Of a DNA stretch of 64,000 bases, positions 29,285 through 32,683 are shown one piece after another. This DNA is from Gaetbulibacter sp. S0825. Lineage in GTDB: Bacteria > Bacteroidota > Bacteroidia > Flavobacteriales > Flavobacteriaceae. The position numbers and the translations under genes are program-made. The notes beneath the pieces are model-generated. The model searched no databases. It saw nothing but the letters and a program-made list of their open reading frames with translations, and had not been told where the DNA came from. Numbering within the stretch: position 1 is the stretch's first letter; each line of letters starts with the position of its first letter. Location: contig NZ_JAATJT010000002.1 in the NCBI RefSeq assembly GCF_011777505.1, positions 186,001 through 250,000 of the forward strand. The letters are read 5' to 3'.

Positions 29285-29848
29285 TTACTTTTTCAACTTT
29301 TTAAGCAAATGTCTTGCACGTGCCTTAAATGCAGCAGTACCTGAATTAAAATCACGCTCTAAAATCATAGCCAGTTCTGGGTGAATCCAATCGTATTCTT
29401 TTCCCAGAAGGTATAGAGAATGCATAGAATACGCTTTTGCTGCTACTTTTTGATTAGTTATCATATAATCAAAACTAAGCTCAATAATTTTTTCTTTGTG
29501 TGCTGGTTTTAAATAATCTTTTGTGTGGTTAATATCTCTATGGTAATAAGCTTCAATAAGATATTCACAAATTTTAGCAATAGGACGGACAGCAGGGTCG
29601 AGGTGAACCGTATGCATGTTTTTCGTAAACTCGTCCAAATATGGTAAAATACTGTCTAAATTTTCACGAGCTACAAACTCAAGCAACCATGCTGCTCTAC
29701 ATGATGTTTTATCGTTAACCTGAAATAGTATATCCATTACTTTTGGGATTAAATCCGGATTAGAAATTACAAGTAACGCATACTTTTTTCTGTTTTCCCT
29801 TGAATGGTTTACGTAAGATAACTCCTTGTATAATTCTTCTTTAGTCAA
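29285..29848 (-). CDS. Helical-repeat (HEAT-like) cytoplasmic protein, unknown function
   Basis: 187 residues, all helical, with repeating pairs such as SRENRKKYALLVISNPDLIPKVMDIL, CRAAWLLEFVARENLDSILPYLDEF and VAAKAYSMHSLYLLGKEYDWIHPELAMIL; the last helix is very basic (KARARHLLKKLKK). The start is a TTG at 29848; no ATG is available before residue 38. The family is common next to purB in Flavobacteriaceae and is sometimes mislabelled as adenylosuccinate lyase from proximity. No catalytic residues are visible. It may be a binding scaffold; its true role is unknown. Confidence 0.65.
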   Translation of the reverse strand: MTKEELYKELSYVNHSRENRKKYALLVISNPDLIPKVMDILFQVNDKTSCRAAWLLEFVARENLDSILPYLDEFTKNMHTVHLDPAVRPIAKICEYLIEAYYHRDINHTKDYLKPAHKEKIIELSFDYMITNQKVAAKAYSMHSLYLLGKEYDWIHPELAMILERDFNSGTAAFKARARHLLKKLKK

Positions 29849-29890
29849 TGAATATTTTTATTACTTTTATTAACACTAAAATTACTAATT

Positions 29891-30364
29891 ATGAAGATTC
29901 TAAAAAAGATATTGTTACTCCTTTTAATTGTGTTTGTTATAGCCCAATTTTTTGGTCCAGAAAAAAACGAAGGAGACCTTACTTCAATTGACCATTTCTT
30001 AGCTGAAACTAATCCGCCGGAAGATATAAAAGTAATTTTAAAAGAATCATGTTTTGACTGTCATAGTTCTAGCACACGATATCCTTGGTATAATAGTATA
30101 ACACCTGTAAACTATTGGATGGCAGAACACGTGAAAAACGGAAAAAAGCATTTTAATGTATCCGACTGGAAAGATGCGTCACTAAAGAAAAGGGACCATA
30201 AGTTTGATGAACTCATAGAAATGGTTGAAAAGCAAGAAATGCCATTGCCTTCGTACACATGGACACATTCTGAAGCAAAGCTTACAGAAGAACAACGAGC
30301 TAGTATAGTTGCTTGGGGCAAAAAAGTAAGAGCTATGTATGCTGAACAAAAAACAACAGAATAA
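29891..30364 (+). CDS. Haem-binding-domain protein (Haem_bd), membrane-anchored
   Basis: 157 residues. One N-terminal hydrophobic segment (about 5-20) is followed by a soluble part with a cytochrome c-type haem motif, CFDCH at 54-58, then HSSSTRYPWYNSITPVNYW, ending LTEEQRASIVAWGKKVRAM. This matches the single-haem Haem_bd family often found in Bacteroidota. If the cysteines are haem-ligated it is a periplasmic mono-haem protein, otherwise a structural relative. It is 3 nt before the glycosyltransferase gene, with which it is presumably co-transcribed, but no functional link is known. Confidence 0.85.
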   Translation: MKILKKILLLLLIVFVIAQFFGPEKNEGDLTSIDHFLAETNPPEDIKVILKESCFDCHSSSTRYPWYNSITPVNYWMAEHVKNGKKHFNVSDWKDASLKKRDHKFDELIEMVEKQEMPLPSYTWTHSEAKLTEEQRASIVAWGKKVRAMYAEQKTTE

Positions 30365-30367
30365 TAC

Positions 30368-31600
30368 GTGGCTAAACTTTTAATCATTGGGTTTGTGTGG
30401 CCTGAACCTAAGAGTTCTGCAGCTGGAAGTCGAATGATGCAGTTAATTAACGTCTTTTTATTAGAAGGATATACTATTACTTTTGCGAGTCCTTGTGCTA
30501 AATCTGAAAATGCATTTAATCTTGAATCTTTAGGAGTAACTCAGAAAGAAATCGAACTAAATAATTCTAGTTTTGATGATTTTATCTCAGAATTTAAACC
30601 AGATATTGTTGTTTATGATAGATTTATGATAGAAGAACAGTTCGGTTGGCGAGTCGCTGAAAATTGTCCAGAAGCACTCCGTATTCTAGATACCGAAGAT
30701 TTACATTGCTTAAGAAAAGGAAGAGAGCAAGCCTTTAAAGATAAAAAGCCTTTTGATAAAACCTATTTATTTAGAGACGTTGCAAAGCGAGAAATTGCAA
30801 GTATTTATAGATGCGATTTAAGTTTAATTATTTCAGAAGCAGAAATGACCATATTGCAAAACGATTTTGGTGTTAACGAAAGTTTATTGCACTATTTACC
30901 ATTTTTAATGGATGATGTTGCAGAAGAAAAAAGAAAGAGCTTGCCATTATTTAAGGAGCGTAAAAACTTTGTAACTATTGGTAATTTTTTACATCCTCCA
31001 AATTTTGATTCTGTTAGGTTTTTAAAAGAAAACATTTGGTCAAAAATTAAATCAGAATTAAAAGATGCAGAGCTTCATATTTATGGAGCTTACGCTAATG
31101 AGAAGGTTAAGCAATATGAAGATAAAAAATACGGCTTTATCATTAAAGGTTTTGCAGACGATGTAAATGAGGTAATGGCTAATGCTAGAGTGTGTTTATC
31201 TCCTTTACGATTTGGTGCTGGATTAAAAGGAAAGTTTTTTGATGCTATACATAACGGGACACCTTTTATCACAACTTCTGTTGGAGCTGAAGGAATCGTA
31301 AATGAAAATAATCGACATGATTTTGTGGCTGATTCTGTTGATGATATTGTAAAATACGCTGTCACCTTATATCAAAATGAAGAAATCTGGTTACAACAAC
31401 AAGAACTTGGTTTCAATCTGCTTTCTAAAAAATTTAATAAAATACTTAATACTAGACGTTTTTTAAATAGGCTAGAGGATGCTCTTGCAAATAAAGAAGC
31501 AAATCGTTTAAATAATTTTTTGGGAAGTATGTTGCAGCATCATAGTATGCAAAGCACTAAATTTATGTCACGCTGGATTGAAGAAAAAAACAAACAATAA
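30368..31600 (+). CDS. Family 4-type glycosyltransferase
   Basis: 410 residues from a GTG at 30368, 3 nt after the previous stop; no ATG exists before residue 23. GT-B fold: the N-terminal half begins AKLLIIGFVWPEPKSSAAGSRM, and the C-terminal half contains FVTIGNFLHPPNFDSVRF, VCLSPLRFGAGLKGKFFDAI and GTPFITTSVGAEGI, the retaining-GT nucleotide-sugar binding block (about 275-310). It is likely to transfer a sugar to a cell-envelope acceptor. No lipopolysaccharide or capsule cluster surrounds it, so the acceptor is unknown. Confidence 0.82.
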   Translation: MAKLLIIGFVWPEPKSSAAGSRMMQLINVFLLEGYTITFASPCAKSENAFNLESLGVTQKEIELNNSSFDDFISEFKPDIVVYDRFMIEEQFGWRVAENCPEALRILDTEDLHCLRKGREQAFKDKKPFDKTYLFRDVAKREIASIYRCDLSLIISEAEMTILQNDFGVNESLLHYLPFLMDDVAEEKRKSLPLFKERKNFVTIGNFLHPPNFDSVRFLKENIWSKIKSELKDAELHIYGAYANEKVKQYEDKKYGFIIKGFADDVNEVMANARVCLSPLRFGAGLKGKFFDAIHNGTPFITTSVGAEGIVNENNRHDFVADSVDDIVKYAVTLYQNEEIWLQQQELGFNLLSKKFNKILNTRRFLNRLEDALANKEANRLNNFLGSMLQHHSMQSTKFMSRWIEEKNKQ

Positions 31601-31617
31601 GTAACAAATAATTAATT

Positions 31618-32307
31618 ATGAAAGTAGCAGATCATATCTTGCTAAATGGATACAAACATGTGTTGTACGACTCTGTTAAGTTAACGCAAGATGAATCAAT
31701 TAAAAAAAGTAAAGCGTTTTACGATTGGTTAGAAACTAGACGGTCAGTGAGAGAATATTCTAGCCAAGATATTCCAAAAGAAGTTATAGAAAATATTATA
31801 AAATCAGCTTCTACGGCACCATCAGGAGCACACAAGCAACCATGGACATTTTGTGCAGTCTCTAATCCTGAGTTGAAACACCAAATCCGATTGGCAGCCG
31901 AAGTTGAAGAACGTGAAACTTATAGTAAACGAATGAGTGAGCGATGGAGAAAAGACCTAGCACCTTTAGGTACCGATACTAATAAACCTTTTATAGATGA
32001 GGCCCCTTGGATTATTGTTGGTTTTAAACGTGTGTATGAACATGATGGAGATGAACGTTATAATAATTATTACGTTAACGAATCTATTGGTATTGCAAGT
32101 GGCTTTTTAATTACCGCTATACATAATGCAGGTTTGGTAACATTAACACATACACCAAGCCCTATGAACTTTTTAACCAAAATGCTTAATAGACCAATTA
32201 ACGAGCGTGCATATTTATTATTACCAATTGGTTATCCAAAACAACCAGCTTATGTGCCAGATTTAGATCGTAAACCTTTAGAAGAAGTTGCAGTTTTTTA
32301 TGAATAA
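31618..32307 (+). CDS. Iodotyrosine deiodinase-like flavin reductase (nitroreductase superfamily)
   Basis: 229 residues. The nitroreductase core is clear (RRSVREYSS, ASTAPSGAHKQPWTF, GLVTLTHTPSP, LPIGYP). A lid insertion reads EERETYSKRMSERWRKDL, as in human and bacterial iodotyrosine deiodinase (IYD). Within it the three residues that in IYD bind the zwitterion of halotyrosine and stack on FMN are in register: Glu98, Tyr102 and Lys123 (spacing x3 and x20). Known relatives remove iodine or bromine from mono- and dihalotyrosine with FMN. It has no signal peptide. The cupin gene overlaps its end by 8 nt. Confidence 0.88.
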   Translation: MKVADHILLNGYKHVLYDSVKLTQDESIKKSKAFYDWLETRRSVREYSSQDIPKEVIENIIKSASTAPSGAHKQPWTFCAVSNPELKHQIRLAAEVEERETYSKRMSERWRKDLAPLGTDTNKPFIDEAPWIIVGFKRVYEHDGDERYNNYYVNESIGIASGFLITAIHNAGLVTLTHTPSPMNFLTKMLNRPINERAYLLLPIGYPKQPAYVPDLDRKPLEEVAVFYE

Positions 32308-32683
32308 ACTATTTAATAATTATATAGGATTTGCAGCTTTAATATTTGTTTTAGTATTTTCTTGCAAACAAGAACAGAATTTACCAGACCCTTATCAAGC
32401 TGGATGGAATGGTGAAAAAGTATGCGAAGTCTTGGAAGATAATGATTACTTACGAGTATTAAAATGCACATTTCCTGCTGGTGTTGGTCATGAAAAACAT
32501 TATCACGAACCACATTTTGGATATGCACTTGTTGGTGGAACTTTTAAATTAGAAGAGGCAACTGGCACCAGAGAAGTAAGCTTTCCAACAGGATATTCTT
32601 GGAGTAAAGATGAAGTGTCTGAGCACCAAGTGTTAAATGTAGGGGACAGTGCTTCGGTATTTTTGATTATTGAGTATAAATAG
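32300..32683 (+). CDS. Cupin-domain lipoprotein
   Basis: 127 residues from the ATG at 32300, inside the last codons of the deiodinase-like gene; upstream in-frame codons (from 32288) would spoil the signal peptide. The lipoprotein signal ends VLVFSC with Cys22. The rest is a single cupin: metal-binding GHEKHYHEPHFGYALVGG (two His-x-His type positions and a Glu), followed by the second cupin motif near HQVLNVGDSASVFL. Small lipid-anchored cupins have no assigned reaction. Overlap with the IYD-like gene means they are probably transcribed together, and a linked role cannot be excluded. Confidence 0.78.
   Translation: MNKLFNNYIGFAALIFVLVFSCKQEQNLPDPYQAGWNGEKVCEVLEDNDYLRVLKCTFPAGVGHEKHYHEPHFGYALVGGTFKLEEATGTREVSFPTGYSWSKDEVSEHQVLNVGDSASVFLIIEYK

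Follow-up and report, generated by a model that had tools for sequence, protein, structure and literature searches.

Known iodotyrosine deiodinases

The catalytic scheme of iodotyrosine deiodinases (IYDs) comes from the literature on the mammalian enzymes and on HhIYD, the enzyme of Haliscomenobacter hydrossis. Animal IYD carries a membrane anchor. By the numbering that we assume for the human protein, the triad that binds the substrate zwitterion consists of Glu157, Tyr161 and Lys182. Structures are available for human and mouse IYD/DEHAL1 (4ttc, 3gfd and 3gh8) and for a short bacterial IYD of 192 aa (6pz0), which we take to be from Thermotoga. The first-pass annotation of the DNA analysed here stated that IYDs of Bacteroidota were already known, and this is correct, as HhIYD is present in the PDB (5ko7, 5ko8 and 5krd). 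Phatarphekar, Buss and Rokita, in a reference cited by PMC3930498, are said to have described IYDs in diverse phyla in 2014. A search of the open-access literature gave no title on a bacterial IYD among the matches listed, the main papers being in subscription journals; one paper (PMC8076288) mentions both Haliscomenobacter and iodotyrosine deiodinase.

The window gene and its protein

The window, that is, the whole stretch of 64,000 nucleotides of Gaetbulibacter sp. S0825 that was analysed, holds at positions 31618..32307 of the + strand an open reading frame of 229 aa, with an ATG start and a TAA stop, whose product belongs to the FMN-dependent nitroreductase superfamily. It is the single IYD copy of the genome. 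The protein is a genuine bacterial IYD and is new as a sequence only; the enzyme class has already been described, and the gene adds to it one well-supported bacterial member. On the basis of its sequence and a structural model, we regard it as probably (about 0.85) a soluble, FMN-dependent reductive halotyrosine dehalogenase of the Bacteroidota type. This reading is supported by fold, residue conservation and dN/dS, and also by the presence in the genome of a 4-hydroxyphenylpyruvate dioxygenase (HPPD) beside a protein similar to homogentisate dioxygenase (HgmA-like). Its chemistry, dimeric state, substrate, electron donor and physiological role are inferred by analogy with the described enzymes.

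When PDB sequences were searched with phmmer, the best match was HhIYD (5ko7, E 2.9e-77), followed by human (4ttb, 1.9e-56) and mouse IYD (3gb5, 1.5e-55); lower down came the short bacterial IYD 6pz0 (2.8e-23) and general nitroreductases (1.7e-13 or worse). A profile built from 61 relatives left this ranking unchanged (HhIYD 2.7e-113, 6pz0 9.4e-29, first other nitroreductase 5.4e-20). HhIYD shares with the window protein a near full-length fold, the lid, the triad and the sequence THTPSPMNFL at 55% identity, and the difference seen between the two proteins is sequence divergence. The human and mouse enzymes (~44% identity) have in common with it the lid, the triad, the FMN arginines and the equivalent of Thr239, but they exhibit TTTPLNCG where the window protein has THTPSPMNF. 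In contrast to the animal enzyme with its anchor, the window protein begins directly at the enzyme domain.

The triad residues Glu98 (31909..31911, +), Tyr102 (31921..31923, +) and Lys123 (31984..31986, +), identified by alignment to IYDs, are each invariant in the 61 rows of the alignment of relatives (A1). Their spacing (x3, x20), which had been read by eye, was confirmed, and the stretch aligns ungapped with HhIYD and with human and mouse IYD. The same 61/61 invariance was found for R41, R42 and R45 of the motif RRSVR (residues 41-45; 31738..31752, +), which presumably are FMN-binding arginines by homology, and for S69, G70 and A71 of SGAH (residues 69-72; 31822..31833, +), a segment that we take, again by homology, to be the flavin/phenolate loop and whose His is found in 55/61 rows. 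T177, H178, T179, P180 and R218 are also invariant. Thr179 (32152..32154, +) is the equivalent of human Thr239, both of them presumably located near the flavin N5, and it appears together with all four putative FMN arginines (R41, R42, R45 and R218). The 61 rows were gathered by six exact peptide patterns taken from the query, so that conservation inside those patterns (e.g., residues 54-61) is partly selected, while the triad residues fall outside them. PMC3930498 names R101, I116 and A220 as disease positions of the human enzyme, which correspond to R42, I57 and A160 of the window protein; each of the latter is invariant in 61/61 rows, even though for I57, which lies within a fetch pattern, the invariance is partly selected.

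Predicted structure

The AlphaFold2 model, calculated from the 61-row alignment as a monomer without flavin, reached a mean pLDDT of 92.2 and a pTM of 0.88. The lid segment (about residues 96-123; 31903..31986, +) is modelled as the end of helix 84-104 plus helix 108-117, and holds the weakest 10-residue block of the model (101-110, pLDDT 77).

VIA-align comparison of the model with known structures placed IYD entries at ranks 1 to 12, headed by HhIYD with FMN and iodotyrosine (5ko8; Z 27.4, rmsd 1.5 Å over 217 residues, 55% identity), with human 4ttc at Z 26.8 and 44% identity. Among the 50 rows listed, the best non-IYD structure scored Z 18.5 at 12% identity, compared with at least 22.6 for the IYDs. 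BluB and general nitroreductases (2isj, 3of4 and 3eof), which share the flavoprotein superfamily with the window protein, showed lower Z values of 17.7-18.5 and identities of 12-23%. Foldseek concurs, giving a TMq of 0.90 to 5ko8_B. The HhIYD, human and mouse entries with a tyrosine-type ligand aligned over 216-219 residues versus 183-200 for those without it, because fewer residues are ordered in the ligand-free chains. The shorter 6pz0, with tyrosine bound, also has the IYD fold and aligned over 184 residues (Z 23.2, 32% identity). The structural alignment has an offset of 59 (model residue 12 matching residue 71 of 4ttc), in agreement with the human triad numbers given above. The triad is predicted to face the flavin, a placement that rests on alignment to ligand-bound structures.

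The first-pass annotation read the gene as a bacterial homologue of IYD that has the lid and the full triad and is of a class known in Bacteroidota, and this is borne out by sequence, fold and conservation; the part of its interpretation that did not stand is the proposed cupin partner, discussed below.

Proposed mechanism and alternative functions

By homology with the described enzymes, each active site would be built by two subunits. Glu98, Tyr102 and Lys123 would clamp the amino acid group of the substrate over the flavin, upon which the lid would close, and the SGAH loop, together with the ribityl chain of the flavin, would hold the phenolate. A hydrogen bond from Thr179 to the flavin N5 may favour stepwise one-electron transfer from reduced FMN, and the expected products are halide and tyrosine. 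The tyrosine could then be used in general metabolism or be channelled into the 4-hydroxyphenylpyruvate/homogentisate route apparently encoded elsewhere in the genome.

An unlikely alternative is that this is an IYD-type enzyme whose true substrate is another ring-substituted tyrosine or a zwitterionic phenol of a related kind, with iodotyrosine as an incidental one. Nitro-, chloro- and bromotyrosine originated by oxidative damage are candidates, and the wide presence of relatives, found in 115/395 sampled genomes of the phylum (E 1e-40, one match each, window genome counted), is in line with such a substrate. So are the occurrence of a relative in a groundwater metagenome-assembled genome (L046) and the fact that none of the neighbours examined shows a theme of halogenated substrates. 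Against it, the substrate-site residues match those of enzymes crystallised with iodotyrosine. The host of HhIYD, H. hydrossis, is presumably a sludge organism, and the connection with marine halogen chemistry and halotyrosine ecology that had been suggested for the gene is unproven. As a broader and quite speculative proposal, to which we give little credence, the Bacteroidota IYDs would be tightly constrained, repeatedly lost enzymes that act in nature not on iodotyrosine but on a different phenolic amino acid or ring-substituted tyrosine. If this were true, bacterial IYD would serve in damage repair or detoxification, and the thyroid function would have been derived from it at a later time.

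It is very improbable that the protein is a generic nitroreductase or NAD(P)H:flavin reductase: PF00881 (Nitroreductase; 72.1 bits versus a gathering cut-off of 23.5) is the sole Pfam family well above its cut-off and general nitroreductases do match, albeit weakly, but two nitroreductase-like controls (L072 and L073) have G and F in place of Glu98, and L and I in place of Tyr102 (with a Lys aligned with K123 in both), and the structural scores given above separate non-IYD entries from IYDs. The first-pass annotation stated that most nitroreductases lack the lid. The gaps of these controls (13 and 10 residues) sit in the helix that immediately precedes the lid and none falls across 95-123; therefore, this comparison is no demonstration that they lack the lid. 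PF14512 was barely above its cut-off (28.2 bits versus 27), the BluB equivalog TIGR02476 scored 51.2 bits versus a cut-off of 150, and no NCBIfam family was found above its cut-off.

Genomic neighbourhood and possible partners

The window gene order is a heme-binding protein (PF14376), a group 1 glycosyltransferase (GT; 30368..31600, +), IYD and a cupin-like putative lipoprotein (32300..32683, +) with a weak Cupin_2 match under the Pfam cut-off. The GT ends 17 bp before IYD, and the cupin gene begins within the end of IYD, with an 8 bp overlap.

GT-IYD adjacency was seen only in the window and in relatives close to it (L002, L003, L004, L074, L075, L076 and L078; L003 and L074, whose IYDs are equally identical to the query, may be one organism). 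As the GT is present in 6/6 sampled genomes of the genus, including the four without IYD, this arrangement reads as shared synteny, and a functional partnership with the GT was discarded.

The cupin had been put forward as the partner of IYD, and this was not borne out. That the two form a module, with the IYD substrate or product being processed by the cupin, is highly doubtful: their genes overlap in the window and adjoin in the same way in relative L075, but the cupin is retained near the GT in all four sampled congeners without IYD (directly after it in G002, G004 and G005, and with one opposite-strand ORF in between in G001), a gene for a SnoaL-like putative lipoprotein separates it from IYD in the congener G003 (L002:2261-2818), no cupin match was found at L003 and L004 or, within flanks of only ~1.5 kb, at L074, L076 and L078, and the cupin exhibits an apparent lipobox (LVFSC, recognised by eye), whereas IYD has no signal peptide.

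Clustering of the neighbours across 68 loci revealed no widely shared operon partner or dedicated reductase. The widest cluster (ABC transporter-like) occurs at 17/68 loci, at positions scattered from -8 to +6, and a cluster of alpha/beta-hydrolases is found at seven loci, five of them from Flammeovirga, directly beside IYD in six. Same-strand neighbours at 100 bp or less, with a maximum of two per side, amounted to 90 in 63 loci, with none at 16 loci. A Pfam scan of 88 of these 90 (a short ORF of L041 and another of L044 were left out) showed the commonest family, among the best 25 of 129 families, in 7/88. A short-chain-dehydrogenase-like cluster was also observed in distant Bacteroidota, with 15 listed positions at 11 loci, seven directly beside IYD.

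Candidate fusions were discarded. The one very long frame, of 610 codons in G490, reads as an upstream extension of an IYD of normal size in GC-rich DNA, and the other longer frames examined, at L094-L098, hold no second domain recognisable by eye. No recognised neighbour and no fusion among these frames points to the electron donor.

Regarding pathway context, the best halogenase match in the window genome reached 19.7 bits, below the PF04820 cut-off of 21. The HPPD of the genome (TIGR01263, 455.4 bits versus a cut-off of 277) is encoded beside the HgmA-like protein (L089:1495-2652), which is above the PF04209 cut-off but scores only 71.8 bits versus 510.75 for TIGR01015, and is possibly a divergent homogentisate dioxygenase of Bacteroidota. 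As both are encoded, the tyrosine that IYD releases could be broken down. Nevertheless, HgmA-like proteins occur in 33/40 IYD-positive and 281/357 IYD-negative genomes of the family (Fisher p 0.68), and this lack of association gives no support to a dedicated pathway. Relatives of the HgmA-like protein were observed in 314/397 family genomes.

Distribution, descent and selection

IYD was found in 2/6 sampled genomes of the genus and in 40/397 of the family (E 1e-30, one match each), the window genome being counted in both cases. Since it is missing from four of the six genus members, it is dispensable; it is an optional gene at the GT-cupin site. Repeated loss is a simpler account of this pattern than gain, because the more distant relatives L003, L004, L075, L076 and L078 also have the GT-IYD arrangement. 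Congeneric species with and without IYD at one site offer a natural contrast, so that the use of IYD to bacteria becomes testable through a single gene.

The tree groups the window IYD with that of its congener, then with L003, and then with L004 and other Flavobacteriaceae. HhIYD is located on an unresolved branch among Bacteroidota, and the long branch of mouse IYD meets the outgroup, which makes its placement unreliable.

IYD is under purifying selection. When six genes were compared between the window and G003, its dN/dS was the lowest, about 0.02 (0.018/0.77). The corresponding dN/dS entries are 0.157/1.14 for the cupin, 0.079/0.50 for the GT, 0.047/1.31 for the HEAT-like gene, 0.063/1.01 for the heme-binding gene, and 0.039/0.69 for the first 108 codons of purB (HEAT-like and purB are names from our own reading of the proteins). 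A recent transfer of IYD between the window genome and G003 was also considered but is not supported, as its dS (0.77) resembles that of the neighbours (0.50-1.31).

Over positions 29285-31600 of the window, the two upstream genes are near those of G002 (L085; dS 0.21 and 0.26) and far from those of G003 (L084; dS 1.31 and 1.01). For the GT, the distance to the two genomes is the same (dS 0.50), a contrast that hints at recombination within the locus. Finally, the IYD of a distant relative (L099; G540:C12) is interrupted by in-frame stops and is apparently a pseudogene.
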